Positions 7,641-44,279 of a DNA stretch of 53,601 bases are shown here, piece after piece. The translations under genes and the position numbers were made by a program. Position 1 is the first letter of the stretch. Each line of letters starts with the position of its first letter. The DNA is taken from positions 1-53,601 of the forward strand of contig AUJT01000026.1 of the NCBI GenBank assembly GCA_000424365.1, given 5' to 3'. Under the pieces are notes generated by a model, which was given only the letters and a program-made list of their open reading frames with translations, searched no databases and was not told where the DNA came from. The DNA is from Lachnospiraceae bacterium NK4A144 (lineage in GTDB: Bacteria; Bacillota; Clostridia; Lachnospirales; Lachnospiraceae).

Positions 7641-7694
7641 TTGTTTGTAGATATTTCATGTGGTAACATGAAGATATAAAAAGGTGGTGATAAT

Positions 7695-7922
7695 ATGGCA
7701 GGAACAAGTGCTTATGCAACACCCATACCAATGCCTTTGGTTGCAAAGAGACCTCTAAAGACAAAGATGTCTAAGGAAGCAAAAGCTCATTATGAGTATA
7801 TGTTTTCAAGGAATGTAGAATTATTTGAAGATGAAAATACAGGTGAATTATATTCAAAGGTCACTAACCTAAATACAGGAGAAACTAAAATAAGGAAGTG
7901 TGAATATACAGATGAAGATTAA
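7695..7922 (+). CDS. Small protein preceding the GNAT gene, candidate antitoxin
   Basis: 75 residues with a good ribosome binding site (AAGGTGGTGAT before the ATG). The N-terminus is short, Pro/Thr-rich and probably flexible; the rest is charged (MSKEAKAHYEYMFSRNVELF, then a two-strand-like ENTGELYSKVTNLNTGETKIR). No known antitoxin fold is recognisable, and it is not a clear RHH protein. The GNAT start overlaps its stop by 11 bases, implying coupled translation, the usual arrangement of GNAT toxin modules, so an antitoxin or regulator role is inferred only from context. Confidence 0.6.
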   Translation: MAGTSAYATPIPMPLVAKRPLKTKMSKEAKAHYEYMFSRNVELFEDENTGELYSKVTNLNTGETKIRKCEYTDED

Positions 7923-8445
7923 TGTTGAAGTATTCACACGGGATATGAAAAGGCTGGCATTAAGGTTTGAATCCGGAAATCCATTCCTTGATAATTTCAT
8001 TAAGTCTGATGAGGCTTTTGACGCTGGCATTGGCAAAACCTTTGTATGGATAGATGAAAAACGAACCAAAATAATTGGTTATTATAATATCGGAGTTGGT
8101 TATATCGACACGATTACTGATGATGGAAAGTATAAGATTGGTGGTTCTATTCACCTTAATTTTTTTGCATTGACCATGCAGTATAGAGGCGTCATTGTTG
8201 ATGTCAAAGATGATGGAACTAAGATTAAGGTATCCGACCAGCTGTTTGCTGATTTTATGAGCAAGGTATATTTGCTTAGAGAGCAATATTTAGGTTTTTC
8301 GTTTGTGACCCTTGCAGCAACTGATGAAGGTTATTCACTTTACAGGAGAAATTTGTTTGAAGATCTTGATGCAGATTTACATTTTTCACTGAAAGAGGAT
8401 GAAGATAATTGTAGACCTATGTATTTGGCGCTCGATTACGAATAA
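7912..8445 (+). CDS. GNAT-family N-acetyltransferase, candidate toxin
   Basis: About 177 residues. The pattern FESGNPFLDNFIKSDEAFDAGIGKTFVWID followed by IIGYYNIGVGYI and the C-terminal GFSFVTLAATDEGYSLYRRNLFED is that of the Firmicutes GNAT group related to TacT/AtaT-type tRNA-acetylating toxins. The usual acetyl-CoA loop (Q/RxxGxG/A) is not visible; the corresponding place reads VDVKDDGTKIKVSDQL, as in some Firmicutes relatives. I prefer the ATG at 7912 to the in-frame GTG at 7900 because AAGGAAG (7892-7898) leaves no room for the latter. It is paired with the small upstream gene, is followed by a terminator, and lies within a unit bounded by 31-bp direct repeats. Confidence 0.72.
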   Translation: MKINVEVFTRDMKRLALRFESGNPFLDNFIKSDEAFDAGIGKTFVWIDEKRTKIIGYYNIGVGYIDTITDDGKYKIGGSIHLNFFALTMQYRGVIVDVKDDGTKIKVSDQLFADFMSKVYLLREQYLGFSFVTLAATDEGYSLYRRNLFEDLDADLHFSLKEDEDNCRPMYLALDYE

Positions 8446-8462
8446 AAATGTGATGATTTAAG

Positions 8463-8497
8463 GCGGGATGTGTTTGAAAAGGTACATCTCGCTTTTT
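8463..8497 (+). terminator. Terminator after the GNAT gene
   Basis: Stem GCGGGATGT (8463-8471) with ACATCTCGC (8484-8492), one G-T pair, then TTTTT. The bases TTTTTATACAAT that follow also follow the terminator at 6353-6397. Confidence 0.85.
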
Positions 8498-8518
8498 ATA
8501 CAATAGACACCAAAGACT

Positions 8519-8549
8519 GGAAAAGACTATTATTCATTTGGGTATGAAG
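8519..8549 (+). repeat. 31-bp direct repeat, right copy
   Basis: Exact copy of 7590-7620. Read in the hipA-like frame it would give GKDYYSFGYEGD and a TGA stop, a plausible original C-terminus for the HipA-like kinase before the GNAT cassette arrived. Confidence 0.95.
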
Positions 8550-8610
8550 GTGATTGAGGTTATGAATTGGAATAGGACAAGTGAATACAAATAGAGTCAG
8601 AGGATAATTT

Positions 8611-8952
8611 ATGATAATTAGCGAGAGAATATTTAAGATAATGGAAGAGAAAGGTATTTCTCAGATAGAATTTGCAAGAAGAACCGGTATATCTCAGAGT
8701 ACGGTAAGTGACTGGAAACGAAAAAAAACAAATCCTGCTGCTGACAAAATTATGTGTATATGTAATGTCCTGGATGTGACACCTTATGAAATTTTGCAGG
8801 ACAGCATAGAACGTCGAAATGGAGTTGATTACATATTACTAGGTGAGGATGACGATGCATTTGAGCTGATAGAGATATATAAAAGTCTGGATGAAAAAAG
8901 AAAAGCAAGACTTATTGGATATGCAGATGCATTAAGGTCAATAAAAAAGTGA
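8611..8952 (+). CDS. XRE-family HTH transcriptional regulator
   Basis: 113 residues. The N-terminal 65 form a Cro/C1-type helix-turn-helix (ISERIFKIMEEKGISQIEFARRTGISQSTVSDWKRKKTNPAADKIM), typical of repressors and antitoxins; the C-terminal part (LDEKRKARLIGYADAL) resembles the short dimerisation tail of clostridial phage-type regulators. Ribosome binding site AGAGGAT. It stands between the hipA-like/GNAT genes and the AAA gene, and a perfect palindrome on the promoter of the next unit (9009-9022) is a candidate binding site. It could also act as HTH partner of the HipA-like kinase. Confidence 0.85.
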   Translation: MIISERIFKIMEEKGISQIEFARRTGISQSTVSDWKRKKTNPAADKIMCICNVLDVTPYEILQDSIERRNGVDYILLGEDDDAFELIEIYKSLDEKRKARLIGYADALRSIKK

Positions 8953-8964
8953 ATATACGGGTAT

Positions 8965-8994
8965 AGGCATGTCGCTTGACATGCTTATTTTTTT
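8965..8994 (+). terminator. Terminator after the XRE gene
   Basis: Stem GCATGTC (8967-8973), loop GCTT, GACATGC (8978-8984), extended by A-T and G-T pairs, then TTATTTTTTT. It physically overlaps the promoter at 8976-9004. Confidence 0.8.
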
Positions 8995-9004
8995 AGACTA
9001 AAAT
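8976..9004 (+). promoter_or_regulatory. Strong sigmaA-type promoter of the AAA gene unit
   Basis: TTGACA (8976-8981), exactly 17 bases, then TAAAAT (8999-9004). The start of transcription would fall about 9010-9012, inside the palindrome 9009-9022. The -35 box lies in the loop and 3' arm of the terminator hairpin of the upstream gene. Confidence 0.75.
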
Positions 9005-9008
9005 AACG

Positions 9009-9022
9009 TATAAACGTTTATA
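9009..9022. promoter_or_regulatory. Palindromic operator candidate at the transcription start
   Basis: TATAAACGTTTATA is a perfect 14-bp palindrome placed just after the -10 box, where a bound repressor would block initiation. The XRE protein encoded immediately upstream is the natural candidate. No second copy was found before the XRE gene itself. Confidence 0.5.
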
Positions 9023-9160
9023 TAATACGCTTAAACAAATTGATAGATATGTCTTTGCAAAATTACATGATAAATAATGAGAGATAGCTAAAAATTGAAT
9101 GATATTCAATAACGTCTATACGGTAAATGAGGCGTGCATATAGGAGGCCTGGGAGGTAGT

Positions 9161-9313
9161 ATGACGGAAGAAGCAGAAGCTCAGATTAATGCGATGTTGG
9201 ATGATGAGTGGGAGTATGGTTTTAAGTGTGGGTATCAAAAGCTGACCTATTACTTTGTAAGTGTATTGAGGATACATAAGAAAGCGGGGATAGCATGGAT
9301 TTTAGAAAATTAA
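9161..9313 (+). CDS. Small ORF (50 aa) translationally coupled to the AAA gene
   Basis: ATG at 9161 follows an excellent ribosome binding site (GGGAGGT, with AGGAGG further up). The 50-residue product begins MTEEAEAQINAMLDDEWEYG and ends GIAWILEN; no domain is recognised. Its stop lies 19 bases inside the AAA gene, whose own start has a poor ribosome binding site, so translation of this ORF would carry ribosomes to the AAA start. It is either a real small protein (partner of the ATPase) or a coupling leader peptide. Confidence 0.5.
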   Translation: MTEEAEAQINAMLDDEWEYGFKCGYQKLTYYFVSVLRIHKKAGIAWILEN

Positions 9314-11169
9314 CAGTACAGCCTGAGTTTGTAGATACAACCTTGCAAATAATGAGAGTTGTTGATAATGCGAGAAGATGGGAGGTAATAGCTGGCTCTG
9401 GGCATTTGGGAAAAACAACGCTCTTATCAATGCTTTATTACTATTTTAATGAAGACCTTGAAACCAAAGAACTTTTTGAAAATACCAGATTGGCAAAGGA
9501 ATATCCGGATTGGGAAAAGGAACTGAATAAATATATAGTGTTGCATCTGGACTTTACGGATTTTGATGAGAGAACTTTTGATAAAGCGATGCGGTATGTT
9601 AATGAAAAGATGAAAAATCTGTATATTCGCATTGTACAGAAACTTTTTCCTAAAGGTAAACTTTATAGATATGATCTGGAAAAATGTATAGATATGATAG
9701 AAAAGGATGTGGAAATAGAAGCATTGGAGTGGTCTTTAAGAGGATTGCTTTATCTTTGCAGAGATTCGAAACGTACTTCTGATTCTATAGAAGATAGACC
9801 TGTCTTACTTATAGATAACATTATAAAACTTGAAACAAAAGCCAGAGAATATAATTATTATCCGGAAATGGAAAAGTTTCTTTTACAATTACTTAGATTT
9901 GAGCCGGACAAGGAATGTGCATATTATTTTCAAGTAGGGGATGTAGATTTGGTTCGTGGTTGTTGGTTTTCAGGACAGATTAGCTATCATCCTGATTTTG
10001 TGGCACCACATAGTGGAGACGAATGTACATGGCTCTTTGAAAATATTTTTGAATGCTATGACGACTGTACCATTAAAGAAAAAATGGAAATAGTGCATGG
10101 GAACCCGATTGAGATGGATCAGGATATGCTGCGCGAAATGAAAGATAAGCATAAAAAGAATCAAATAGAAGCAGAGAGGGTAGCAAAAGAACAGGAAGAG
10201 GAACGGAGGAGAAGATATGCGGCGGGGTTAAGACAGGGAGTATGCATGTATTCGCCGAGTATGGGATTAAGAAGCTACAAAATGGGTATGTTTATTAATA
10301 ACCTCAAAATGGTGGAGTCAAAATTAAAACGACTATATAAAGATAAAGACGAATACAAAGAATACTCGGATGTTTATAGTAAATTGCAAAAACTTGATAA
10401 AAATAATCCGTCCGGTTGGAAAGAGGAAGATACAGATGAGCTTATTGCCTCATGTGTAGGAATTCGAGATGGATGGAAGGTTTCATATCACAACAGAGAT
10501 TATTATTGGGAGTATATCGATGTTTCTGATCCTGGAAATCACAACTACAGTATTAGTGACATTAAAGCGTACATAAAACCAAAGAAAACAGAGCTTAAGG
10601 TGTTCTATAATGACTGTATAAAATACTTATTGGAAAACGGGAAAGAGGGATTTGTTACAAAGATAAGTAAGTTCGATCGTGAAGATGTTATATGTCTTTG
10701 GGTGAGGAGATATGAGTTTGATCTATTAGAGAAATTTTGCGACAAACGTGAGAACGATCTTATAGATTGCCTTCCGCTGATGGCTCATAGAAGAAAAATA
10801 GCAATTAGCCATGACTTTATGGACTTGGATACGCATAATGGAATACTTGCAAAAATAATATATGATTACTTTCAGATGATAGATGATGAAAGTCAGATAG
10901 ATATAGAAAAAATGTATGATCTCTTTGTTAAGGGGTGGAATGCAGATCTACCTGCAGGAAATATATTCCGAAAAGACTTTGAACGTGCATCTGCTCAGGC
11001 ATTTGTTATGTTGATCGATTCATTAAATTGCGTTTTGTCAGGAAAAGATCTTTCAGATGATTCATTTATTCTTTCTGATGACAGAGAGGCATGGGGGAAT
11101 CTTGGCAATGCAAAGTGTTGGAATAATGTCAGACCAAGAAAAGAGAATATAGAAGGAAAATTAGCATGA
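9295..11169 (+). CDS. AAA-type P-loop ATPase of an accessory (defence-like) family
   Basis: 624 residues. Walker A GSGHLGKTT (about residues 34-42) and Walker B RPVLLIDN (about 168-175) are clear; the intervening LDFTDFDERTFDKAMRYVNE resembles the AAA-ATPase-like group (PF09820 type) that in other bacteria usually carries a C-terminal PD-(D/E)XK-like nuclease (DUF1703). Here I see no such motif: residues 290-325 are a charged coiled coil, and the C-terminal 300 residues are unrecognised. Probably cytoplasmic. Driven by its own promoter with a palindrome at 9009, next to XRE, MNT and Wadjet genes. Defence or toxin function is inferred from neighbourhood. Confidence 0.65.
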   Translation: MDFRKLTVQPEFVDTTLQIMRVVDNARRWEVIAGSGHLGKTTLLSMLYYYFNEDLETKELFENTRLAKEYPDWEKELNKYIVLHLDFTDFDERTFDKAMRYVNEKMKNLYIRIVQKLFPKGKLYRYDLEKCIDMIEKDVEIEALEWSLRGLLYLCRDSKRTSDSIEDRPVLLIDNIIKLETKAREYNYYPEMEKFLLQLLRFEPDKECAYYFQVGDVDLVRGCWFSGQISYHPDFVAPHSGDECTWLFENIFECYDDCTIKEKMEIVHGNPIEMDQDMLREMKDKHKKNQIEAERVAKEQEEERRRRYAAGLRQGVCMYSPSMGLRSYKMGMFINNLKMVESKLKRLYKDKDEYKEYSDVYSKLQKLDKNNPSGWKEEDTDELIASCVGIRDGWKVSYHNRDYYWEYIDVSDPGNHNYSISDIKAYIKPKKTELKVFYNDCIKYLLENGKEGFVTKISKFDREDVICLWVRRYEFDLLEKFCDKRENDLIDCLPLMAHRRKIAISHDFMDLDTHNGILAKIIYDYFQMIDDESQIDIEKMYDLFVKGWNADLPAGNIFRKDFERASAQAFVMLIDSLNCVLSGKDLSDDSFILSDDREAWGNLGNAKCWNNVRPRKENIEGKLA

Positions 11170-31972: not shown

Positions 31973-32263
31973 TAGTAAACTAAAATAAATTATCTAAAAC
32001 CTTTTTCCTCTTTACGGGTACTAAACAGTAGCCGATGAGTTACGGTTCGCATACAAACGGTGTACTTTGATGCCGGGAGTAGGCGGATAGTAACACAGAT
32101 GAGAGAGATGGCGGATTCATCATGCTCCGGATACGGTAATGATCCATGTGCCTGGAGCAAAGCAGTTGATGGAGTATGAATGATGATGCTGAGTTGCAGT
32201 GCCGATGTGGAGGTCGGTATTGCAGGAGAAAAGGAGGAAAAAGGTAATCGGAGATCTCAATAT
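31973..32263 (+). other. Intergenic region with a decayed repeat fragment (32038-32094)
   Basis: GAGTTACGGTTCGCA at 32038 and GGATAGTAAC at 32085-32094 resemble the two ends of the modular palindromic repeat with a shortened, unmatched interior. Beyond it are a CTCCGGATACGG stretch and the GGAGTATG before an alternative sigma-factor start at 32180. No clear promoter boxes. Confidence 0.4.
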
Positions 32264-34216
32264 ATGGAGATAGACCAGAAACTCATATCGGCCGTTGGTA
32301 AGATGAAAGCCGGAGAAGAAGAGGGTTTTAATCAGGTTTACTCGGCAACGTACAATTTTGTGTACTTCCGTGCACGTCAGATCATGAAAAATGAGGATGA
32401 CGCGAAGGACCTGGTTCAGATCGTTTATATGGAAGCTTTCAAATCCATCGGGGCTCTGGAAACACCGGAAAGCCTGTTTTCATGGCTTGGAGCGATTACC
32501 TATAGGCAGGGAATGAAATTATTCAGGAAAAAAACTGAATTATTGCTCGATGAGGATTTCGAGAGTGTATTTGAAAATCTCGAATCTCACGATGATGACT
32601 CCCGGCCTGATATCTCTGCGGAGCAGAAGGAGGAACGTGATCGCATAGCTGCGCTTATCGAGGAATTACCGGAAGCACAGCGTATGACCGTTGTGGCCTA
32701 CTACTATGATAATATCAAGATCGATGACATCGCAGAGGTCATGGATTGTTCTGTGGGTACAGTTAAGAGCAGACTGAATTATGCCCGCAGATTTCTGAAA
32801 AAGAAGCTGGAAAAAGATGCGAAAGCTCATCATACCAGCACAGGAGCAGTCGTTCTGTCAGCACCGCTGATATTCCTTGCGGTACAGCAGATTTCGACAA
32901 AGACTGTTCTCGCAGCGACAGAAGCGCAGACACTTTACTCAGGTATTTGTACCGGAGTCGGACTTACGGCAGGTGCCATTACAACAGCAGCGGCAACTAC
33001 TGCAGCATCAGCGGCAGCAGGAACAGCAGCGGCAGGTACATCTGCAGCAGGTCATGTAGCAGTCGCAGGTACGGGAGTATCTATGGCTACAGTGTCAGGA
33101 GCTTCGGCAGGAAGTGCCGCAGTGGCAGGAACGGCAGCAGTTGCTGAGACTGCAGGAATTGCAGGAACAGCTGCAGCCGGTACAGCGGCAGCTGGTACGG
33201 TTACCGCGGCAGGTACTGCAGCGGCAGCGGGAACAGGAACCGCAGTTGCGGCAGGTGCCGCCGGAGGAGCTGCGGCAAAGAGTGTTGCTATAGCAGTGGC
33301 TGTGGCAGTGGCCGGAACAGGGGCCGGAGTCGGGACGGTGGAACTGCATCGTCATTCTACAGTTTCTTCAGTATCAGTAGAAGAAGCAGTGAGTATGGGT
33401 GCAGTAGAAGCCTCAACGGATGTCATACCTGATATTGGAGAAGTGTCCGGAAATGATGTTGTTGAGGAAATACCTACATCAGTTGAAGAAGCGCCCGATT
33501 ACGGACTGCAGGAAGGAACGGAAGGGACGGATCCTTTTGATGAGAGAGAAAAGGAAGAAATTCCCGATGAACCGTCCGTGGAGAAGACGGTTTCCGAAAA
33601 CAGCGGAGAAAAGAAGATTTCCGATAATTCTGCGAGAAAATTCAAGATTTCAAAGAAGGTTGGAAAGCATCTTTCATCTGCAGTTGCATCCTTACTGCTG
33701 CTGAGCGGTCAGACGTCCTACAGCGGAGCCGTGAATAATACATCGCTGGAAGCAGCATATCTTGTTGGCGAAAGTTCCATCGTGACAAAGAAGGAATTTT
33801 CTTCCTTGTCAGGTAACACATTGTTCCTGAAAAAACCGCTTGTTGAGAGAGCAACCGAACTGAACGGAAAGGTCACGATAAATGGCCGGTTCTATATGGG
33901 GCAGATTGGTGAGAACGGACAGTATAGCGGTAATTGGTATGAGTTTGAACTGACGGCTGCAGAAAACGCCGGGGATAATGTCTTTGGTGGTCTGTCAGCA
34001 GAAAATCTTATTATCGTAGCAGATGCTTCGGGGGAGGAACCTGCAGATAATGATCCGGTAGAAACCGTACCGTCAGCCAGCGACGATGCTTTAGGTGATG
34101 TTTCCGATGGAAACGGAACCGGAGAGAGTTCAGAGGAGAGTAACGGCACAGGAGAAAAGGAGACTGATCCTGAAACTCCTGAATATGTGGAAGATATAGT
34201 GCTGGATCTCGAATAG
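32264..34216 (+). CDS. ECF-like sigma factor fused to an Ala/Gly/Thr-rich tail and a C-terminal domain
   Basis: About 650 residues. Residues 10-75 hold sigma region 2 (YSATYNFVYFRARQIMKNED, DAKDLVQIVYMEAF) and about 130-185 region 4 (LPEAQRMTVVAYYYDNIKID, DIAEVMDCSVGTVKSRLNYA). Then follow a short hydrophobic segment (GAVVLSAPLIFLAVQQ), roughly 120 residues composed almost only of Ala, Gly, Thr, Ser and Val (about 232-355), an acidic stretch, a second hydrophobic segment (SSAVASLLLLSG) and a C-terminal domain with an acidic end. I start at 32264 behind GGAG; an in-frame ATG at 32180 is possible. ECF factors are normally about 180 residues; the tail may tether the factor to the membrane and replace an anti-sigma factor. 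Confidence 0.82.
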   Translation: MEIDQKLISAVGKMKAGEEEGFNQVYSATYNFVYFRARQIMKNEDDAKDLVQIVYMEAFKSIGALETPESLFSWLGAITYRQGMKLFRKKTELLLDEDFESVFENLESHDDDSRPDISAEQKEERDRIAALIEELPEAQRMTVVAYYYDNIKIDDIAEVMDCSVGTVKSRLNYARRFLKKKLEKDAKAHHTSTGAVVLSAPLIFLAVQQISTKTVLAATEAQTLYSGICTGVGLTAGAITTAAATTAASAAAGTAAAGTSAAGHVAVAGTGVSMATVSGASAGSAAVAGTAAVAETAGIAGTAAAGTAAAGTVTAAGTAAAAGTGTAVAAGAAGGAAAKSVAIAVAVAVAGTGAGVGTVELHRHSTVSSVSVEEAVSMGAVEASTDVIPDIGEVSGNDVVEEIPTSVEEAPDYGLQEGTEGTDPFDEREKEEIPDEPSVEKTVSENSGEKKISDNSARKFKISKKVGKHLSSAVASLLLLSGQTSYSGAVNNTSLEAAYLVGESSIVTKKEFSSLSGNTLFLKKPLVERATELNGKVTINGRFYMGQIGENGQYSGNWYEFELTAAENAGDNVFGGLSAENLIIVADASGEEPADNDPVETVPSASDDALGDVSDGNGTGESSEESNGTGEKETDPETPEYVEDIVLDLE

Positions 34217-34250
34217 GGCCGGAGATTAAATGGATCAGATATAATTAAAA

Positions 34251-34285
34251 GGATCACCGCAGTGGAGAGCGGTGATCCTTTTCTT
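34251..34285 (+). terminator. Terminator after the sigma-factor gene
   Basis: Perfect 10-bp stem GGATCACCGC (34251-34260) / GCGGTGATCC (34269-34278), then TTTTCTT; the AAAA before the stem also makes it usable on the minus strand for the convergent aminotransferase gene. Confidence 0.93.
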
Positions 34286-34292
34286 ATGCGGA

Positions 34293-34373
34293 GCACTTAG
34301 CGAGGTATTTTCGAGCTTAGTGCGTGCTATGCAAGTTCGCTTGGCGAGGTCTTATCGAGCCTAGCGTAACTTG
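34293..34373. repeat. Two tandem hairpin elements (TTAGCGAG type)
   Basis: Unit 1 is 34293-34323 and unit 2 is 34332-34373. Their cores, CTTAGCGAGG ... TCGAGCTTAG and CTTGGCGAGG ... TCGAGCCTAG, differ at four of 25 positions; one A-T pair of the stem in unit 1 is a G-C pair in unit 2. Unit 1 has outer stem GCAC/GTGC, unit 2 CAAGTT/AACTTG. A related hairpin lies inside the repeat at 52183-52238. Confidence 0.75.
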
Positions 34374-34380
34374 TTTGACA

Positions 34381-35484
34381 TTATCTTAATGCATTTTCGA
34401 TGCAGTCGAGAAGACGGTCGTTGTCTTCGGGATCCATGAAGCAGATACGGAAGAAATGATTGTCCAGGAATGGAAATGTGCTGCAGTTTCTTATCATCAT
34501 GTGCTGTCTTATGCAGGTATCAAAGAGTGTGTCGGCATCAGCTTTGTCAGAGTCGATACGGCAAAGCACGAAGTTTGCTGAGGGTTCAAAGCAGGTGATG
34601 CCGAGATCTTTCATGCCTTTAAGTCTGTCAGTAACACGTTTTCTTTCTGTGGTGATAAGATTACGCGTACGTTCGATATATTCTGAATCGCTGAACATGA
34701 TCCTTCCGGCGATCTCTGCAATGGAACTAATAGACCATGGATGTTTTTTGGTGTTGATCTCGCGGATAAGATCCTCGTTACCGGTGACAGCATATCCAAG
34801 TCTGAGCCCCGGTGATGCAAAAAATTTTGAAACACCCCGGATGATGAACAGGTTGCTGTATACAGCAGTGAGAGGAATGCCCTCGAGTTTTTCCATATTT
34901 TCCGTAAACTCGATGTAGGTTTCATCAACCATTACAAAGATATCACGCGCTTTGCAGATATCGAGAACCTGTCTCAGACCTTTTTGATCGATAACAGTGG
35001 AAGTGGGATTGTTCGGGTTGCACAGGATAAGCATATCCACATCGTCTGTGAGCCGTTCCTCGAGAGCTTTTATATTCAGCTTAAAGCCATCCGCTTCTTT
35101 TAACGGGAAGTAAAGAGATGTTCCACCGCCGAGACTAACTTCACGCTCGTATTCTGAATATGAGGGTCCGAGGATCATGGCTTTCTTTGGGTGCTTAAGT
35201 TCGATCAGGATAGATATAAGTTCTGTAGAACCGTTACCGACTATGATATGTGATGGATCGGCACCGCAGTATTTACCAAGGGTTTTTCTTAGTTCGGTAT
35301 ATTCACGATCAGGATAGGTTTCTATACATGTAACATGCTCGGAAATGGTTGCCTTTAGAAGATTTGAGATTCCAAGAGGATTTACATTGGCGGAAAAAGA
35401 AGTGATATCTTCTTTCTTTATGCCATAGACCTGTTCGATTTTTTCAAGATCGCTTCCGTGAAAATGATCGGTGTGTTTTATCAT
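34381..35484 (-). CDS. PLP aminotransferase: threonine-phosphate decarboxylase / histidinol-phosphate aminotransferase type
   Basis: 367 residues, fold-type I. N-terminal HGSDLEKIEQVYGIKKEDIT followed by SFSANVNPLGIS is typical of CobD (L-threonine-O-3-phosphate decarboxylase) and its close HisC relatives; GNGSTELI binds the PLP phosphate, LCNPNNPTSTV and MVDETYIEF are the ring-binding motifs, and the Schiff-base lysine is in RGVSKFFASPGLRLGY. No cobalamin or histidine genes are nearby, so which reaction it performs is open. I start at the ATG at 35484 (GGAGG 8 bases before) rather than an in-frame GTG at 35499 that overlaps that site. It is the only minus-strand gene in this part. Confidence 0.85.
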   Translation of the reverse strand: MIKHTDHFHGSDLEKIEQVYGIKKEDITSFSANVNPLGISNLLKATISEHVTCIETYPDREYTELRKTLGKYCGADPSHIIVGNGSTELISILIELKHPKKAMILGPSYSEYEREVSLGGGTSLYFPLKEADGFKLNIKALEERLTDDVDMLILCNPNNPTSTVIDQKGLRQVLDICKARDIFVMVDETYIEFTENMEKLEGIPLTAVYSNLFIIRGVSKFFASPGLRLGYAVTGNEDLIREINTKKHPWSISSIAEIAGRIMFSDSEYIERTRNLITTERKRVTDRLKGMKDLGITCFEPSANFVLCRIDSDKADADTLFDTCIRQHMMIRNCSTFPFLDNHFFRICFMDPEDNDRLLDCIENALR

Positions 35485-35766
35485 TGCTACTGCCTCCACC
35501 AGTCTTTTAATAAGTAATTTATCGTGGTATAATCATATCGTTACAGTCGTTGAATAGTACAACTTTTTGCGATTGTGACAATCTTAGTTTAATGCAGCTT
35601 CATTTTTCTTTCAAGAAAGTAAAAAATCTAAGTTACAGTTCACGCGTAAACGCTGAGTAGCCATTGGATTTTGCCCATCGCCGCAGGCGATTTAATTGGC
35701 AAAATCCGTTACGTGAACGAGCTGAAAGCGAGTGAACAGTAACAATTCTAATACCTGGGGGAAATC
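35485..35766. other. Intergenic region before the four-gene operon
   Basis: Contains repeat copy B (35632-35743), which ends only 23 bases before the DUF5717-like start. Upstream, AT-rich sequence around 35515-35600 holds divergent TATAAT-like strings (e.g. GGTATAAT, 35526-35533) that could serve as a promoter, without an unambiguous -35. Confidence 0.4.
35632..35743 (+). repeat. Modular palindromic intergenic repeat, copy B
   Basis: 112 bases from GTTACAGTTCAC to GTGAACAGTAAC. The GGATTTTGCC (35666-35675) / GGCAAAATCC (35698-35707) stem with inner ATCGCC/GGCGAT is perfect; the first hairpin module (CGTAAAC...GTTTACG) is deleted, leaving only CGTAAACGCTGAGTA. It shows that the hairpins are separable modules. 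Confidence 0.9.
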
Positions 35767-38700
35767 ATGCAGGAAACCTGTCTGGATAAAATCTTAAGCG
35801 GGAAGTTTGAATATGAGCATGATTCTCTGGTGTTTTCTGAAAAAAAGATCGACCTGATCGTTCATCCCGGCGAAAAGGCTACAGGAACCTTCCATATCGA
35901 ATCAAGTAAGGAAGGTATCCTCAGGGGAATGATCAGCACATCCAGCCCGAGACTTGTCTGTGTCAATGCAGAAGCGGATGAAAGGACTGCCACCGTGCAG
36001 TATTCCTTTGATGCCAGTGGTCTGGAACCCGGCAATGTCGTCAGGGGAGTCATTTTCGTAATTTCCGATGCAGGTGAATATCGTCTTCCGTTTTCTGTCA
36101 GTGTAGTGAGAAACTATCTGGATTCAGAAGAAGGAAGGATAAGAAATCTTTTTCACTTCACAAATCTCGCACGTCGTAGTTTTGACGAGGCTGTCAGAGT
36201 TTTTTATTCACGTTCTTTTTCGGAGATATTTCAGGATTCCGACCGGAGATTTCTGAATGAGTACCGTCTGTATTCGGTGGTACCGGGCTCTGCAGCAAAT
36301 ATGGAACAGTTTCTCATAGCTGTGCACAAAAAATCGCCTGTAGTTTTTTCTACTGATGTCACAAAGATAGAAATGACGGATGTGAGCGATGATATAGAGG
36401 GCGAAATAAGGATACGAAAGTCCGGTTGGGGCTATATTCATCTGGATATAGATTGCGACGGCGATTTTATTCGTGCGGAAAGATATGAATACTCTGCTGA
36501 GGACTTCAGCGGAGATCTTCTGACTATTCCGTATCAGATAAGATATAAGGATCTTCATGCAGGAAAGAATCTTGGCAATCTGACAATTTCCTGTACAGGA
36601 ACAGTGATCGTTATTCCGTTTACGCTCGTATGCTCGTCATCAGAAAATCTGCAGGAGAGACTGGATAAGCGGCGTAAGCAGCACATTATCCTGGAACTTA
36701 TGCGTACATACATGCAGTTTAGAACGCACAGGATAGATGTAAAGAAATGGTGCAGCCGTTCCATGACTCTTACTGAAAAACTTCTGAGAGATGATGAGCG
36801 GGATATGGAAGCCAGACTTTACATGGCTCAGATCCTCTTAGCAGAGGGAAGAAACCGTGAAGCCGGTTTTATATTGGAACATGTCAGAAATAATCTTGCG
36901 CTCGGAGGCATGCCGGTAGAATATACAGGGTATTGTGATTATCTGGAAGCACTTCTTAACAGAGATCCTGATATCGTAAAAAGCCGGGCAGAGAGAGTCA
37001 GGGAGATGCTCAGGCGAAATCCCGGATCTATGCGTCTGACCTGGTTGACCCTTTACCTTGACGAGTCGGTAGCGGGAGATTCAGAAGCCAGACTGGCCCT
37101 TATCCGTAAAGCATTCGAAAACGGAAGCCGCAGTCCTTTGCTGTATATAGAAGCATTGGCGGCACTTAAGGACTGGCCGGAATCCTGGGATGTGATGGAC
37201 GATTTTTACATACAGACCCTTTGGTGGGGCGTCCGTAATGGTGTGATGTATGAATCGCTGGTTTCCAGGATGGTATATCTGACGCTGCGTAAGGATGGAT
37301 ACTCAAAGATCCTTATCAGAGTACTGAAAGCATACTATGATACATTCCATACAGAGGAAATCCCGGAAGCGGTATGTACGCTTCTGATCCGTAATGCCAG
37401 ATATGGAAAAGAAGAATTTGGCTGGTATTCGATAGGAGTAGAGAAGTCGTTTAAGGTTACGAGATTATACGAATCGTATCTTAATTCCGTTCCACTGGAT
37501 TATGATCAGCTTCTTCCACGTCAGGTTCTACTGTATTTCGGCATGAAGTCAGGCGTATCTGATGAGAGGATGGCATTGTTGTATGCCAATATGATACGCA
37601 ATCAGAGCAGGACGGCTGATCTTTTAAAAGAAAATAATGAGAAGATCCTGCAATTTGCAACCCGTGTTGCAGAGCAAAATGTACTGAGCAAAAATATGTC
37701 AGTGGTTTACGAATATGCAGCTTCTCTTAAAGAAATTGAGAATAAGGACGAGTTTGAAAAAGCAATCGCTCCGGTAATTTTTCGTCACAGGATACGGATA
37801 CCTGATAAGAGAGTACGAAATATCATAGTGGCTGAGGACGGAATAATACCGTTAAAGAAAGCGCCTGTAAATGAAGGTCGTGCATATATCTCGATCTACG
37901 GTACGGAATATTCACTGGCATTCGAGTATGCGGATGGACGTCTTTCTGTTCCGAGTCCTGCATTGAAGGATCGTCAGATGCTTCATCCGGCGCATTTCGT
38001 TCATGCACTTACAAATTTTGGTACGGATCGTGCAGGTATTGCTTTTTATATTTGCGGTATCGGACGCAGGGCAGCATCTGTAAATGAACTCAATGTAGAT
38101 TCAGCCCGGACTATCGTATCATCAGACCAGATAGATCCTGAGATACGTGAAGAGTTTCGGCGTGAGCTCATGAGATTTCTTTACGAGCAGGACAGGATCG
38201 ATGAACTCTATGAGCTGTTGTCGGATGCCCCCATAAGAGAATTCAGCAGTCATACACGTTCGGAACTCGTGCGTTACATGGTTATCTGTGGAATGCATCG
38301 AAATGCTTATGAATGTGTAACGACCTGCGGACCGGAGGGAGTAGATCCAAAGATCCTTGTTCGTCTTGTGAGCCGGATGATACAGGAAGGGGTAAATACA
38401 GAAGATCCCAGACTGCTGGATCTGTGCTTTATGGTTTTCCGTGCCGGAAAATACGATGAAGCAATGTTGAACTACCTTTGCGAAAATTTCCACGGTACTG
38501 TGCGTGATATGCGTGATATCTGGAAAGCGTCCGTAGGATTTGACGTAGATGTAATGACGATCGAGGAGCGTATTCTTAATCAGATGCTCTATGCCAGATC
38601 CTTTGTAGGCGAAAAGGACGAGATTTTTGCGGATTACTGCAAGAGAGGCGGCAGGCAGAAACTCATAAGAGCATTTCTCGATTACAGCTCATATGAGTAC

Positions 38701-39336
38701 TTTGTTAAGGACAGGATAACTTCAGCTGAGATATTTGACACTATTCTCAGGAGACTTCGAGAGGGCGAGCAGATGTCTGAAATCTGCGCCCTGGCTCTTA
38801 CAAAGTATGCTGCAGATCCGAAGAGAGCGCCGGACCCGCTTAGAAAAGAACTGGCTGATGTGGTTTCTTCTCTTATGGAACGCGGCCTGATGTTTGAATA
38901 TTTCAGAAACTACAGGAAATATGTTTCTGCTCTGGCATTATTCAGTGACAGGACGTTCATAGAGTACAAGGCCAGTCCCAGATGCAAGGTGGTACTTCAT
39001 TCGCTGATATCCGGTGAAGGAGAGAGCGTAGACGAGTATAGAAAAGAAGATATGCCGGATATGTATGAAGGTATATATTCTGAAAATATGGTCCTGTTTT
39101 TTGGTGAGACGCTTCAGTATTATGTGACTGAAGAAATCGACGGCAGGTCAAATCTTACGGAAAGCAGGAGTATCGAAAGAGATGTCACTCGTCTGGATCG
39201 CAATGATTCAAGATACGACCTGATCAATGACATGCTTGTTTGTCAGTCGGTTGGAGATATAGAAAGCCTCAGAGGGCTCATGGAGCAGTATATAAATAAA
39301 TCGGAGATCGTGTCGGAAGTATTTCGGCTTAGATAA
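35767..39336 (+). CDS. Large DUF5717-like protein, first gene of an unknown four-gene operon
   Basis: 1189 residues, no signal peptide or membrane helix. Residues about 20-115 (LIVHPGEKATGTFHIESSKE ... RLPFSVSVV) and about 190-285 (a second all-beta stretch ending VIVIPFTLVCSS) look like Ig/MSP-like beta sandwiches; most of the rest (300-1180) is helical and reads as degenerate TPR/HEAT-type repeats (DMEARLYMAQILLAEGRNRE, AGFILEHVRNNLALGG), consistent with a scaffold. From memory this matches DUF5717 of Lachnospiraceae. Ribosome binding site GGGGGAAA. The next gene, an actin-fold ATPase, begins 12 bases later, so the proteins are likely to act together. Confidence 0.8.
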   Translation: MQETCLDKILSGKFEYEHDSLVFSEKKIDLIVHPGEKATGTFHIESSKEGILRGMISTSSPRLVCVNAEADERTATVQYSFDASGLEPGNVVRGVIFVISDAGEYRLPFSVSVVRNYLDSEEGRIRNLFHFTNLARRSFDEAVRVFYSRSFSEIFQDSDRRFLNEYRLYSVVPGSAANMEQFLIAVHKKSPVVFSTDVTKIEMTDVSDDIEGEIRIRKSGWGYIHLDIDCDGDFIRAERYEYSAEDFSGDLLTIPYQIRYKDLHAGKNLGNLTISCTGTVIVIPFTLVCSSSENLQERLDKRRKQHIILELMRTYMQFRTHRIDVKKWCSRSMTLTEKLLRDDERDMEARLYMAQILLAEGRNREAGFILEHVRNNLALGGMPVEYTGYCDYLEALLNRDPDIVKSRAERVREMLRRNPGSMRLTWLTLYLDESVAGDSEARLALIRKAFENGSRSPLLYIEALAALKDWPESWDVMDDFYIQTLWWGVRNGVMYESLVSRMVYLTLRKDGYSKILIRVLKAYYDTFHTEEIPEAVCTLLIRNARYGKEEFGWYSIGVEKSFKVTRLYESYLNSVPLDYDQLLPRQVLLYFGMKSGVSDERMALLYANMIRNQSRTADLLKENNEKILQFATRVAEQNVLSKNMSVVYEYAASLKEIENKDEFEKAIAPVIFRHRIRIPDKRVRNIIVAEDGIIPLKKAPVNEGRAYISIYGTEYSLAFEYADGRLSVPSPALKDRQMLHPAHFVHALTNFGTDRAGIAFYICGIGRRAASVNELNVDSARTIVSSDQIDPEIREEFRRELMRFLYEQDRIDELYELLSDAPIREFSSHTRSELVRYMVICGMHRNAYECVTTCGPEGVDPKILVRLVSRMIQEGVNTEDPRLLDLCFMVFRAGKYDEAMLNYLCENFHGTVRDMRDIWKASVGFDVDVMTIEERILNQMLYARSFVGEKDEIFADYCKRGGRQKLIRAFLDYSSYEYFVKDRITSAEIFDTILRRLREGEQMSEICALALTKYAADPKRAPDPLRKELADVVSSLMERGLMFEYFRNYRKYVSALALFSDRTFIEYKASPRCKVVLHSLISGEGESVDEYRKEDMPDMYEGIYSENMVLFFGETLQYYVTEEIDGRSNLTESRSIERDVTRLDRNDSRYDLINDMLVCQSVGDIESLRGLMEQYINKSEIVSEVFRLR

Positions 39337-39348
39337 AAAACGAAACGG

Positions 39349-40614
39349 ATGGAAATAAAAGAAAAGAGAAAAGTTGTTTTCGGAATAGATCTTACTGAAG
39401 ACACAGCACAAATATCATATTGCTTTGGACCTGAGGAAGAAGTGAAAACAGAGAGGATCGGAGCAGAGGAAGAGAATTTCGCTGTTCCGGTGGCTGCTTT
39501 CCGTTTGAAGAACGGAAACAGATTTGTGTTTGGCTATAAAGCGTTGGAAGAGGCCGAAAAAAATGGTTCGGAACCCGTGAGCCGTTTTTTGAGTGTAGCA
39601 CTTGAGGGAAATAAGCTCTATGATGAAGTTGGGGAAATAGAGCCAACAGAGCTTATCGGAAGCTTTTTATCATGGCTCCTCAGAGTTCCGGTGGAAACAG
39701 TTGACGCAGAGCCGATAGCTTTGGTGGTTTCGGTGCCTGAAGTTACTGAGTTGATGCCGGGGATCCTCTATCAGTCTATCCATCAGGCGGGTATCAGGAT
39801 ACCTGAAGTTCGGTTCGTGAGTCATGCGGAGAGTTTTTATTTTTACGCAATGAGTCAGCCGGTGGAGCTATGGAGAAACGGAGTTATCCTCTTTGATTAT
39901 GACGATGAGCATTTTGAGTATCGTCGCCTTGTCATAGATGGAAGAACTAGGCCGGCGATCGTGACCACGGAAGGTCGTAAATGTCCGGAAATGCTGCCTT
40001 TTCTGCCGGGACAGCCCGAGCATATGGATAGTATTTTTCTGGAAATAGCAGAGGAAGCACTGCAGAAAGAGAGACCGTCTGTTATCTATCTCACCGGAAA
40101 GAGGTTTGAGGTACGTTGGGAGAGAGAGACGCTCAGGTTTCTTTGCGGAAGGGGAAGAGTTTTTCAGGGACAGAATCTTTACAGCAAGGGCGCATGTCAT
40201 GCTGCTATGGATGCAGTTTACTGGAGCAGGCTTTCCAGGAGATATCTTTTCCTTGATGATGACAGTCTGAAGCAGAACGTCAGCATAAGGTGCATGGGTG
40301 CAATAGGCAGAGAAACACAGCTTCCGGTTATAGATGCCGGTATAAGCTGGTACAATGCGGAGGCACATATTGAGGTTCTTCTGGGAACAGACCGAGAAGT
40401 CACTGTGGTACTTACCGGGATGATGGACGGTTCGGAGAGAAATGTAGTTCTCCGTCTGGACTGGATGCCTGAACGACCTGACAGAGCCAGTCGTATCGGT
40501 ATGGATTTTAGGTTTATCGAGAAAGAACGGCTGGAAGTGACCATCACGGATCTTGGTTTTGGAGATCTCTTCAAATCCTCCGGACTTAGGGAGACAGAGC
40601 GGATCACATTATAA
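39349..40614 (+). CDS. Actin/Hsp70-fold ATPase-like protein (DUF5716-like)
   Basis: 421 residues. The N-terminus VVFGIDLTEDTAQISYCFGP has the phosphate-1 loop pattern of actin/Hsp70 ATPases, GNRFVFGYKALEEAEKNG corresponds to the Hsp70 strand after subdomain I, GVILFDYDDEHFEYRRLVID to phosphate-2, and PSVIYLTGKRFEVRW ... GACHAAMDAVYW to the adenosine motif. The usual Thr/Gly residues (DLGTT, GGG) are replaced, so ATP hydrolysis may be weak or lost. The last 110 residues are beta-rich. From memory it resembles DUF5716. It forms one transcription unit with the large scaffold upstream and the TPR protein downstream; chaperone- or cytoskeleton-like work is a guess. Confidence 0.75.
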   Translation: MEIKEKRKVVFGIDLTEDTAQISYCFGPEEEVKTERIGAEEENFAVPVAAFRLKNGNRFVFGYKALEEAEKNGSEPVSRFLSVALEGNKLYDEVGEIEPTELIGSFLSWLLRVPVETVDAEPIALVVSVPEVTELMPGILYQSIHQAGIRIPEVRFVSHAESFYFYAMSQPVELWRNGVILFDYDDEHFEYRRLVIDGRTRPAIVTTEGRKCPEMLPFLPGQPEHMDSIFLEIAEEALQKERPSVIYLTGKRFEVRWERETLRFLCGRGRVFQGQNLYSKGACHAAMDAVYWSRLSRRYLFLDDDSLKQNVSIRCMGAIGRETQLPVIDAGISWYNAEAHIEVLLGTDREVTVVLTGMMDGSERNVVLRLDWMPERPDRASRIGMDFRFIEKERLEVTITDLGFGDLFKSSGLRETERITL

Positions 40615-40624
40615 GGATGAGTTT

Positions 40625-41446
40625 ATGGTTTATCAATGCGTTGGGCAGAGAGCTTCGTCCCCTTTTCATATGAAAGGTGCGGGACTTGGGATCTACTCTC
40701 TGGAAGAACTGCTTTTCTACATTAGGGAAAATGTATTTATGATAGATTCTTCGCTTATGAGTGAAGAATTTGTAAAATTTGTGCGGTGCGAGCTTTGCCT
40801 TTCTACTCTTGCGGACAAACTCGCTGAAATAATGAATAATGGCGGCGAACTCTCAGAGTTTGTTGAGTGCCTGTTTAAGGCATCTGACTTTGTATCGGGA
40901 ACGGAGCTCGTGACTATACTTGGAGCACTGGCAGTCACGGATCGCCTGAGCAGTCATGAAAAGCACAAGATCCGCGGAGATTTCCTGATGAAATGCGGAC
41001 ATACGTCCCGCGCGGTCATGGAGTATTATTCGGCATTGCAGGAGATGGACAGGAACAGCATGCCGGAGGAGGCAGCCAGACTTTGCAATAATATCGGTGT
41101 AGGTTGTGCCGAGATGTTTTTCTTTAGTCGTGCGGCTGATTACTTTGAAGAATCATACCGGTTGAAACCGGATGAGGAGACAGAAACCGAGTTGCTGGTT
41201 GCGAGAAAGTTATCTTTATCTGATGATGAGTATGAGAAATATTTAGCAGGCAGAGGTGTTTCCAAAGAAACTGCGGTGAAAGTGGAGCAGGTTATCAAAC
41301 ACGCCGAAACAAAGGTTATCAGAAGGCGTGATGCTCGTATGGTACGAAATGCAGAGAACCGCAGGAAAAATGGAGACAGTTTTGGGGAGAGCAGAGTACT
41401 GTCAGAAGTTCTTGAGCTCTGGAAGAATGAGTACAGAAGAATATGA
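40625..41446 (+). CDS. TPR-containing protein of the four-gene operon
   Basis: 273 residues. N-terminal part (YQCVGQRASSPFHMKGAGLG, IYSLEELLFYIRENVFM) is conserved-looking and unrecognised; residues about 120-200 form one to two TPR units (AVMEYYSALQEMDRNSMPEE, FSRAADYFEESYRLKPDEET); the C-terminus is a basic helix (KHAETKVIRRRDARMVRNAE). I start at ATG 40625, with AAGGATGA before it and 10 bases after the previous stop; an upstream in-frame extension lies inside the ATPase gene and is rejected. The last four bases (ATGA) overlap the next gene. Confidence 0.78.
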   Translation: MVYQCVGQRASSPFHMKGAGLGIYSLEELLFYIRENVFMIDSSLMSEEFVKFVRCELCLSTLADKLAEIMNNGGELSEFVECLFKASDFVSGTELVTILGALAVTDRLSSHEKHKIRGDFLMKCGHTSRAVMEYYSALQEMDRNSMPEEAARLCNNIGVGCAEMFFFSRAADYFEESYRLKPDEETETELLVARKLSLSDDEYEKYLAGRGVSKETAVKVEQVIKHAETKVIRRRDARMVRNAENRRKNGDSFGESRVLSEVLELWKNEYRRI

Positions 41447-42651
41447 AGATTACAGAATGGTTTCGCAGTAAACTGAAAAATCCGTTTCGGGCTTCGGCTG
41501 AAAAGGATGGAGATGCAGCTGATGTAGATCGTGATGAAATACGCGAGGAGGAAGCACCTCTTCGCAGATCTTCTATTGACATACGTGATAAGGAGCAGCG
41601 GGACAGATATATATCCAATTGCTGCGAGCAGATGATCGAGGCTACGGAGGAAGTTGAGAAGGCGACAATGGAGTATCGTCTTGTCACTGAGTATCTGAAA
41701 GACATGGAGGCAATTGACAATCTGCCTCCTGATGTCAGAAATCCTATAAACTCGACGGCGGAGCGTATTATCAATCTCGACAGACAATCACGCGCGAATC
41801 AGAAGAGCCTCGGAAAGATCTCAGAGTCCCAGTATATGCTCATGAACCGTTATGAACGGGATGTTCCTATGGATATAGAAAAAATCCAGAAGAACGAAGA
41901 ATATCGTGAGCTTGTAAGGGCGGATATGCAGAAACTCGAAAGCGAAAAGGCTGTTAATTCCTTCCGTGCCCGTGAGCTTCGCCTTACGATACGAAACATG
42001 AGAAATATGGTTGGGATCACGCTGGCTTTTGGGGTGCTGCTGATCTTTTTACTTTGTATTCTTCAGTTTGTTATGGAACTGGATGCAACCGTGGGATTTT
42101 TTGTCACGGCAGCAGTTGCAGCCGCAGCGTTTACAGCCGAATATGTGAATTATGCGGGTGCCGCAGCACAGCTCAGAAAGACGGAACATTACCTTAATGC
42201 AGTTGTAGCAAAGCAGAATAAGGTAAAAGTCCGCTATGTCAATACGACAAACCTCTTGGAATATGAATATCGTAAATATCACATAAATGTCTCTAATGAG
42301 CTGGTCTATTATTGGGATAATTATCTGGAAGAAAAGAAGGCAAGGCAGGCTCTTGAACGAAGTGATTCGGAGATCGCGGAAGAAAAAAAGAGTCTCGTAA
42401 AGCAGCTTCGTAAGGCACAGATCCATGACCCGAATGTATGGGTAAATCAGTGTGAAGCATTGGTTAATCCTAAGGAAATGGTGGAAGTGCGCCATGATCT
42501 GATCGTCCGCAGGCAGTCTTTAAGAAAGCGTGTGGAATATAATACTGAAAACCGTGATCAGTCTAAAGACGAAATTAATTCGATCGTTCATGATTACCCT
42601 GAATATGGACGAGAGATATTAGCAATAGTGTCCAAATATGACCAGCAGTAA
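41443..42651 (+). CDS. Coiled-coil membrane protein of the four-gene operon
   Basis: 402 residues. A long N-terminal cytoplasmic coiled coil (about 45-180), two membrane helices in tandem (MVGITLAFGVLLIFLLCILQ, about 187-208, and ATVGFFVTAAVAAAAFTAEY, about 213-234) forming a hairpin, and a second coiled coil (about 240-395). Both coils would face the cytoplasm, a layout suited to anchoring the scaffold, ATPase and TPR proteins at the membrane. Unrecognised family. Coupled to the TPR gene by an ATGA overlap; the operon ends here. Confidence 0.75.
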   Translation: MKITEWFRSKLKNPFRASAEKDGDAADVDRDEIREEEAPLRRSSIDIRDKEQRDRYISNCCEQMIEATEEVEKATMEYRLVTEYLKDMEAIDNLPPDVRNPINSTAERIINLDRQSRANQKSLGKISESQYMLMNRYERDVPMDIEKIQKNEEYRELVRADMQKLESEKAVNSFRARELRLTIRNMRNMVGITLAFGVLLIFLLCILQFVMELDATVGFFVTAAVAAAAFTAEYVNYAGAAAQLRKTEHYLNAVVAKQNKVKVRYVNTTNLLEYEYRKYHINVSNELVYYWDNYLEEKKARQALERSDSEIAEEKKSLVKQLRKAQIHDPNVWVNQCEALVNPKEMVEVRHDLIVRRQSLRKRVEYNTENRDQSKDEINSIVHDYPEYGREILAIVSKYDQQ

Positions 42652-42696
42652 CGAGTCTGTAAATTAATTTAATACGTTGAATCATTATAGTTTTTC

Positions 42697-42725
42697 GTTG
42701 CATGGATTTTGGCTGTGATATATAA
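42697..42725 (+). promoter_or_regulatory. SigmaA-type promoter of purF
   Basis: TTGCAT (42697-42702), 17 bases, TATAAT (42720-42725). The 5' leader to purF would be about 125 bases; I see no purine riboswitch in it. Confidence 0.6.
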
Positions 42726-42857
42726 TAATCAACGTTGTTTCGACTGAATCTATTCTGAACGATGTTTCCGCTGACATACGTTCCAGGATTCAGTTACAGG
42801 CTCTTTGTTTTTTGGTGTGTTTTTGCTTGGCGGGCAGGCACATCATGGGGAAAATGA

Positions 42858-44279
42858 ATGGATTTTGACAGACTGGGTGAGGAGTGCGGCGTATTCGGAA
42901 TCTATGATTTCGATGGAAATGATGTTGCACAGACAGTTTATTATGGTCTTTATGCTCTTCAGCACAGAGGCCAGGAAAGTGCAGGTATTGCGGTCAAGGA
43001 TACAAATGGTGCCAGAGGCGTTGTATCCAGCGTGAAAAACATGGGACTTGTCAGCGAGGCAATTGATAGTGAAAGTCTTCAAAAGCTTCACGGAGATCTC
43101 GGTGTAGGTCACGTCAGATACTCAACTGCAGGTGCATCCACAAGAGAAAATGCACAGCCGTTGGTATTGAACTATGTTAAAGGAACTCTTGCATTAGCTC
43201 ATAATGGTAATCTGGTTAATTTTCCGGAACTTCGCAGAGAACTGGAATATACCGGTGCTATCTTTCAGACGACGATCGATTCAGAGGTCATCGCCTATTA
43301 TATTGCAAGAGAAAGACTCAATTCTAAAAATGCAGAGGAAGCATTCCGAAAGGCATGTTCCAGATTAGTCGGTGCATTTTCTATTGTTGTAGCAAGTCCG
43401 AGGAAACTCATGGGCGCAAGAGATCCATGGGGTTTCAGACCTCTTGTTATCGGTAAGAGAGGCAATTCCTGGATCCTTACATCTGAAACATCTGCTCTTG
43501 ATACTATCGGTGCAGAATATGTCAGAGACGTGGAGCCGGGTGAAGTCGTTTCCATTTCTAAGGAAAACGGTATCCAGTCAGATCGCACGCTTTGCATAGA
43601 ACCGTCGAAGCGTGGTCACTGTATCTTTGAATATATCTATTTTGCAAGACCTGATTCGGTGATCGATAATATCAGCGTATATCAGGCACGTATCCAGGCA
43701 GGAAGATTCCTCGCTATGGATTCACCCATCGAAGCCGATGTAGTTATCGGTGTTCCGGAGTCCGGAAATGTAGCTGCGATGGGGTATGCACTTCAATCAG
43801 GAATTCCCTATGGTATAGGATTTTACAAAAATGGCTACGTTGGACGTACCTTCATAAAACCTAAGCAGAAAGCCAGGGAAAATGCTGTCGAGATCAAGCT
43901 TAATCCGATCAGGGAAGCTGTTAACGGCAAGAGAGTCATAATGGTGGATGATTCCATTGTTCGTGGAACTACAAGCGATCAGATCGTAGAGATGCTCAGA
44001 AAAGCAGGTGCAACTGAGGTTCATATGATGGTCAGTTCGCCGCCGTTCCTGCATCCCTGCTTTTTCGGTACAGACGTGCCGGCAGAGGATCAGCTTATAG
44101 CGACAGGAAAAAAAGTTGAGGAGATCCGTCAGATCATCGGTGCCGATTCCCTTAATTATTTAAGAGTCGAGAGACTCCCTGAGTTAGTAAATGGCATGGC
44201 TATCTGTGATGGCTGCTTCAGTGGTCATTATCCGGTTGATCCGCCGAAAGAAGATATCCGTGGAAGTTTTGAAAAGTAA
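42858..44279 (+). CDS. purF: Amidophosphoribosyltransferase
   Basis: 473 residues; first step of purine synthesis, PRPP + glutamine to phosphoribosylamine. The N-terminal glutaminase nucleophile is the Cys in MDFDRLGEECGVFGIYD, so nine or ten residues are removed as a propeptide, as in the Bacillus type. Further motifs: LQHRGQESAGIAV, GHVRYSTAG, AHNGNLVN and the PRPP loop VIMVDDSIVRGTTSDQIVEMLR (about 353-374). CDGCFSGHYP near the end and the FEYIYFARPDS run carry the conserved Fe-S cysteines of this class. Followed after 13 bases by purB. Confidence 0.97.
   Translation: MDFDRLGEECGVFGIYDFDGNDVAQTVYYGLYALQHRGQESAGIAVKDTNGARGVVSSVKNMGLVSEAIDSESLQKLHGDLGVGHVRYSTAGASTRENAQPLVLNYVKGTLALAHNGNLVNFPELRRELEYTGAIFQTTIDSEVIAYYIARERLNSKNAEEAFRKACSRLVGAFSIVVASPRKLMGARDPWGFRPLVIGKRGNSWILTSETSALDTIGAEYVRDVEPGEVVSISKENGIQSDRTLCIEPSKRGHCIFEYIYFARPDSVIDNISVYQARIQAGRFLAMDSPIEADVVIGVPESGNVAAMGYALQSGIPYGIGFYKNGYVGRTFIKPKQKARENAVEIKLNPIREAVNGKRVIMVDDSIVRGTTSDQIVEMLRKAGATEVHMMVSSPPFLHPCFFGTDVPAEDQLIATGKKVEEIRQIIGADSLNYLRVERLPELVNGMAICDGCFSGHYPVDPPKEDIRGSFEK

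Follow-up and report, generated by a model that had tools for sequence, protein, structure and literature searches.

An operon centred on an Hsp70-fold protein without nucleotide motifs and its relation to an operon of motif-intact Hsp70s

The window analysed here is a 53,601-nucleotide stretch of DNA from Lachnospiraceae bacterium NK4A144 (contig AUJT01000026.1), and our subject is a group of four genes on its forward strand that an earlier reading of the letters alone (the original prediction) had taken for an operon. Gene 1 (35767-39336, +) encodes a 1189-residue DUF5717 protein, an immunoglobulin (Ig)-like and solenoid scaffold; gene 2 (39349-40614, +) a 421-residue DUF5716 protein that is a pseudo-Hsp70; gene 3 (40625-41446, +) a protein of 273 residues counted from its ATG, with a longer TTG frame from 40553; and gene 4 (41443-42651, +) an accessory protein of 402 residues with a coiled coil and a membrane hairpin. 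The four open reading frames (ORFs) lie where they were predicted, separated by 12 bases, 10 bases and then a 4-base overlap. Gene 1 matched DUF5717_N (PF18984, 1.3e-264) and DUF5717 (PF18983, 1.4e-104) and gene 2 matched DUF5716_C (PF18980, 7.8e-91), all above the curated Pfam cut-offs, and because these matches are strong we regard both genes as real and not as chance ORFs. All three entries are families of unknown function. No Pfam family was above cut-off for genes 3 and 4, and no NCBIfam name was above cut-off for any of the four. Protein 2 has the fold of an Hsp70 without its nucleotide motifs, and the comparisons below connect it with an operon that, in other families of the order, encodes motif-intact Hsp70s.

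In the model of protein 2, residues 7-302 (39367-40254, +) adopt the nucleotide-binding-domain fold of an Hsp70, residues 309-420 (40273-40608, +) resemble the beta substrate-binding domain, and DnaK (7kru_B) aligns over residues 8-421, giving a two-domain Hsp70 fold. The 50 listed fold matches are all Hsp70-type entries and lie within ~2 Z units of one another. Profile comparison supports homology as well, with E values of 1.3e-25 to c, an Hsp70 of the related operon described below, and 1.4e-9 to DnaK chains; the link to chaperones made in the original prediction is thus borne out, as is its Hsp70-like fold. Unlike DnaK, however, protein 2 lacks the nucleotide motifs, the catalytic lysine and the helical lid (SBD-alpha), its model closing in a strand at 414-420. 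The phosphate-1, phosphate-2 and adenosine motifs and the catalytic lysine were each found in 0 of 27 aligned relatives of protein 2, and the former nucleotide pocket is no more conserved in this family than the remaining columns, results that do not support the predicted 'actin-fold ATPase' with altered motifs.

Genes 1 to 3 are nearly universal in the window's own family (f1), in which we counted genes across 150 genomes, each at least 97% complete. Gene 1 is present in 149 of these; gene 2 in 148 at E < 1e-40 and in all 150 at E 1e-3, with G356 and G304 reaching only ~1e-10; and gene 3 in 148, missing from the same two genomes. In G304, gene 1 lies at a contig end, which may have truncated the locus before genes 2 and 3. 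Gene 4 was detected in 63 of the 150 (E 1e-10). In wider samples, gene 1 was found in 181 of 294 genomes of the order (121 from f1 and 60 from other families), in 4 of 299 genomes of the phylum, all four of them f1, and in none of 14 control genomes. Genes 1, 2 and 3 are consecutive in 28 of 28 f1 loci of a first set, comprising 27 loci chosen for holding DUF5717 and the window itself; in one of these (L043) genes 2 and 3 form one ORF, and in another (L045) the gene 1 ORF has only 897 residues. Gene 4 comes next after gene 3 in 15 of the 28. The predicted single operon therefore holds, and genes 1 to 3 do co-occur in other genomes. A second f1 set, of 20 loci in 18 genomes that were selected for gene fusions or unusual features, included a genome with gene 1 separate from genes 2-3-4 (G332), one with a 270-aa ORF between genes 1 and 2 (G404), one in which gene 3 adjoins gene 2 and is overlapped by an antisense ORF (G419), and several loci that stop at contig ends. 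Five genomes (G257, G326, G344, G399 and G347) have genes 2 and 3 fused in-frame into one ORF of 684-723 aa, an argument for contact between the two products. Proteins 1 to 4 diverge in a correlated way (r 0.70 to 0.90 over 15 to 27 loci), which co-inheritance would lead one to expect. Two records filed as 'Bacteriophage sp.' (L206, MT835486; L207, MT835988) resemble bacterial chromosome and hold genes 1 to 4, and the first also holds valS.

The decisive context for these genes is a related operon outside the window, in other families of the order, that holds motif-intact Hsp70s and a GrpE-domain protein. Outside f1, gene 1 is often split into an ORF of ~400 aa for the Ig part and one of ~900 aa for the helical part, and up to five extra genes lie between genes 1 and 3: the Hsp70s D, c and w, together with E and b. 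The operon thus comprises three motif-intact Hsp70s (D, c and w), genes 1, 2 (as b) and 3, and sometimes gene 4. In genome G135, HSP70 was matched by D (2.6e-66), c (1.4e-53) and w (3.2e-88, with an additional vWA domain); c was also barely above the DUF5716_C cut-off (35.2 vs 34.7), and b matched DUF5716_C below cut-off. E is a coiled-coil protein with a GrpE domain (37.6 bits in G135 and 46.1 bits in a second member, against a cut-off of 25.8), and GrpE was found in 10 of 11 E proteins at E <= 1e-3. The G135 gene 3 product has tetratricopeptide repeats (TPRs), gene 4 has no family above cut-off, and a valyl-tRNA synthetase (ValS) gene follows. The order D-E-b-c was found in 18 of 22 loci, each from a different genome, with other ORFs interspersed in G043, G057, G155 and G219; of the other four loci, those of G042 and G093 reach a contig end, and those of G109 and G165 have c on a different contig from gene 1. 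A homologue of the aminotransferase upstream of gene 1 in the window occurs in 10 of 28 f1 loci and 9 of 22 other-family loci, and ValS in 7 of 28 and 4 of 22; neighbours common to both groups indicate that at least some loci of each group occupy one and the same chromosomal position.

A scan with c found at least 29 loci at 53-63% identity among the best 80 matches, under titles such as Candidatus Epulonipiscium sp., Defluviitaleaceae, Clostridiales and Eubacteriaceae. Many of these 29 are cut by contig ends; among them were b in 23, w in 23, E in 21, D in 17, gene 3 in 15, gene 1 in 13 and gene 4 in 1. The remaining 51 of the 80 listed matches, at 27-31% identity and from archaea, Omnitrophota, some Clostridia and others, were taken for ordinary DnaK. 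In L097, w (7046-9223, -) is an Hsp70 fused to a C-terminal vWA domain; there are six such proteins, five of them 58-67% identical to the first. The related operon is dispersed, with intervening ORFs or parts on other contigs, in L051/L077 (G165), L058/L082 (G109), L117, L122 and L125.

To place protein 2 among these Hsp70s, we built a DnaK-rooted tree of 58 rows (6 DnaK, 10 D, 9 w, 10 c, 10 b and 13 protein 2), selected from 19 D, 15 w, 18 c, 18 b and 27 protein 2 sequences. The b proteins, themselves a dead branch of the Hsp70s, form one clade with protein 2 (98/89), sister to the motif-intact c, inside a clade with support of 100/100. Protein 2 is itself a single clade (100/100) nested in b, its nearest relatives being b of G027 (100/99) and then of G114 and G135 (100/97), and each of these three genomes carries c, D, w and E. 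Because protein 2 is nested within the b proteins of such operons, the simplest reading of the partners' absence from f1 is loss. A c-type Hsp70 (E <= 1e-100) occurs in 59 of the 294 order genomes, none of them f1 and 56 of them among the 60 other-family genomes with DUF5717. Full-length E was found in 0 of 150 f1 genomes; five weak matches there, in frames of 206-233 aa, are confined to the GrpE end and were taken for ordinary GrpE. D and w were sought in f1 by a PF00012 search of eight genomes. In the window's genome DnaK came up in two pieces, and one further match fell in a frame of 338 aa, about the size of MreB; the seven others gave DnaK and short frames (~284-361 aa over all eight), with a second DnaK in G290. 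An Hsp70-like match also lies in a 953-aa frame apart from DnaK (G277:C1:31888-33033). Together, these data suggest that a duplication of c gave rise to b and that f1 lost the ATP-driven part, as judged for D and w from the eight genomes. It is very probable that protein 2 is a dead Hsp70 descended from the b/c branch of the related operon.

An AlphaFold2 (AF2) model of protein 1 (pLDDT 87.1, pTM 0.59) contains the Ig domains and helical solenoid that had been predicted. The first Ig-like domain (residues 21-113; 35827-36105, +) has the PapD/ASH type among its tied best matches, and the second (residues 193-289; 36343-36633, +) is preceded by a helical insert at 128-185. A TPR-like alpha-solenoid follows (residues 295-670; 36649-37776, +), within which residues 337-374 match TPR_19 at E 3.9e-4, under the Pfam cut-off, and for which a profile search gave GmaR at E 2.7e-4. 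The model then shows a beta-domain within the solenoid (residues 673-737; 37783-37977, +), a second solenoid stretch (residues 741-1059; 37987-38943, +) and a C-terminal beta-domain (residues 1062-1137; 38950-39177, +) followed by helices. Ciliary central-pair C1 proteins with tandem Ig-like domains, HYDIN and CEP192 offer a structural analogy only: protein 1 is bacterial, a sequence relationship to them is not shown, and bacterial Ig-like domains score nearly as well as the ciliary ones in structure comparison. In the gene 3 family, a conserved N-terminal motif region precedes TPR-family helices, TPR_2 was found in 16 of 30 members and the family profile matches TPRs in the PDB. The predicted TPR protein is therefore supported for the family, but not for the window's own protein alone, which has no TPR match at E 1e-3 (best E 0.064). 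In protein 4, Kyte-Doolittle (KD) windows mark two hydrophobic segments at residues ~185-235 (41995-42147, +), the second weak, with a peak of 2.89 at residue 189; PDB profile matches are mainly to coiled-coil chains at E 0.045 or worse. These windows and the family alignment agree with the membrane hairpin and coiled coil that were predicted.

These observations lead us to propose that the related operon encodes an Hsp70 machine of its own, built on an Ig/solenoid platform and taken through ATP cycles with the help of a dedicated GrpE-like factor, and that f1 no longer has this cycle. There, protein 1 would serve as the platform, protein 2 as a fixed Hsp70-type surface, possibly with a putative peptide-binding beta domain, and protein 3 as the TPR partner of protein 2, leaving proteins 1 to 3 as an ATP-independent scaffold for client binding and assembly. 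In lineages that have gene 4, protein 4 would tether the complex to the membrane. We slightly favour the whole of this explanation, a dead-Hsp70 platform left from an ATP-driven Hsp70 operon, over its being wrong. Whether the complex works as an ATP-independent, chaperone-like scaffold we consider an evenly balanced question, and we would give about the same weight to the idea of a 'ghost chaperone', a near-universal complex of one bacterial family that needs no nucleotide and has at its core a dead Hsp70 left behind by its ATP-driven partners. If this is true, the substrate-binding architecture of Hsp70 has become a permanent component of the cell, with a role in structure or assembly.

Several observations weigh against this proposal. 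The window's protein 2 alone scores below Pfam HSP70 (PF00012), which is reached by 3 of 32 members of its family. In the b group, the likeness of the former pocket is 0.497 against 0.347 elsewhere, a value reached by 0.15% of random column sets; some role of the old pocket may persist there, and weak nucleotide binding may still be compatible with the loss of motifs in protein 2. The tree has long branches (b_G141 4.21, b_G135 1.93 and many protein 2 rows ~1), and the program flags long-branch joining. The pairing of c with gene 1 has exceptions, c occurring without a DUF5717_N match in G077, G189 and G233 and the reverse in G039, G079, G137 and G160. G356 is the single f1 genome without genes 1 and 3, and its gene 2 match is weak; the system can apparently be lost, be this a real loss or an assembly gap. 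Finally, contact among the proteins is argued from operon order, fusions and correlated divergence, the last of which is expected from shared descent alone.

Among the alternatives, protein 2 might assist the housekeeping DnaK as a co-chaperone, a non-canonical Hsp70 modulating a working one, and proteins 1 and 3 would then be adaptors. Hsp110/Sse1, an Hsp70-fold protein, serves another Hsp70 as its exchange factor. Ssz1, according to abstracts, is a non-canonical Hsp70 that acts as a partner in the ribosome-associated complex, again an Hsp70-fold protein serving another Hsp70 or complex, and both of these eukaryotic proteins are close in fold to protein 2. However, the Ssz1 entry 4gni has ATP and magnesium bound according to its title, whereas protein 2 has lost that site and its sister Hsp70, c, which would be the nearest partner, is missing from the sampled f1 genomes. 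Protein 2 also has no helical lid, and fold alone does not choose among 50 Hsp70 structures so close in score. We consider a co-chaperone role, in which DnaK would now supply the ATP step, unlikely.

Less likely still is that protein 2 is an actin-fold adaptor that docks protein 1 on an envelope, division or secretion machine via protein 4. FtsA and PilM are actin-fold adaptors of this kind, protein 4 has a membrane hairpin, and gene 4 is co-inherited where present (r 0.90 with gene 1, 15 loci). However, the 50 listed fold matches are Hsp70-type, FtsA and PilM not having been compared separately, and gene 4 is in 63 of 150 genomes against 148-149 for genes 1 to 3. The 'membrane-tethered assembly' of the original prediction thus fits this genome but not the family in general.

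A conflict or anti-phage system of the Hsp70, GrpE, TPR, Ig-like and vWA type seems very improbable. Similar part lists do occur in GAP1-N2 systems, which the portions of PMC7159879 consulted describe as GTPase-centred conflict systems, some with HSP70, GrpE, TPR or FNIII proteins, and in CoCoNuT systems, which in passages of PMC11090510 hold degenerate Hsp70-like domains with helical repeats. In L097, c (9147-10784, -) and w (7046-9223, -) match the PADLOC candidate PDC-M61B over their Hsp70 part (8.6e-9 and 2.3e-6). However, proteins 1 to 4, D and E have no PADLOC match, the locus is near-universal in the family (149 of 150), and a Pfam scan of eight operon proteins at the G135 locus found no GTPase, McrBC-type partner, nuclease or other effector. 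We give equally little credence to a true ATP-driven machine, in which protein 2 would bind and hydrolyse ATP via rearranged motifs, since the intact fold and the greater-than-chance likeness of the old pocket in the b group stand against the loss of three motif sites and the catalytic lysine in 27 of 27 relatives and pocket columns that are not specially conserved.

What is new here is that DUF5716 and DUF5717 are tied to Hsp70, and to an operon in which motif-intact Hsp70s are accompanied by a GrpE domain. Among the openly licensed papers that our searches listed, none describes this operon or its function; the one paper found to name DUF5716 or DUF5717 is unrelated, to judge by its title and abstract, and the main text of a survey of DnaK duplication in bacteria (PMC11019930) has no word starting 'Lachno' or 'Clostridi'. 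Two families of unknown function that are near-universal in f1 would thereby gain an origin in a dedicated Hsp70 operon, GrpE-like protein included, which relatives still carry, and 'function unknown' becomes a set of specific tests. The two operon forms offer a natural before-and-after series, in which the dead Hsp70 first has motif-intact Hsp70s beside it and then lacks them, for studying the role that an Hsp70 can play when it no longer uses ATP.

In the window, the four genes are flanked upstream by the aminotransferase gene (Aminotran_1_2; 34381-35499, opposite strand) and downstream by an amidotransferase gene (GATase_7; 42858-44279), which we read as purF. A consensus scan of 34200-43200 gave 15 promoter-like sites against 17.0 expected from shuffles and 6 terminator-like sites against 6.5; on the + strand it placed no promoter-like site directly 5' of gene 1 and no terminator-like site between genes 1 and 4. 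Farther upstream, a 678-aa ORF (32180-34216, +) encodes a sigma factor of the extracytoplasmic function (ECF) type (Sigma70_r2 and r4_2) with a long Ala/Gly/Thr-rich stretch and an acidic tail.
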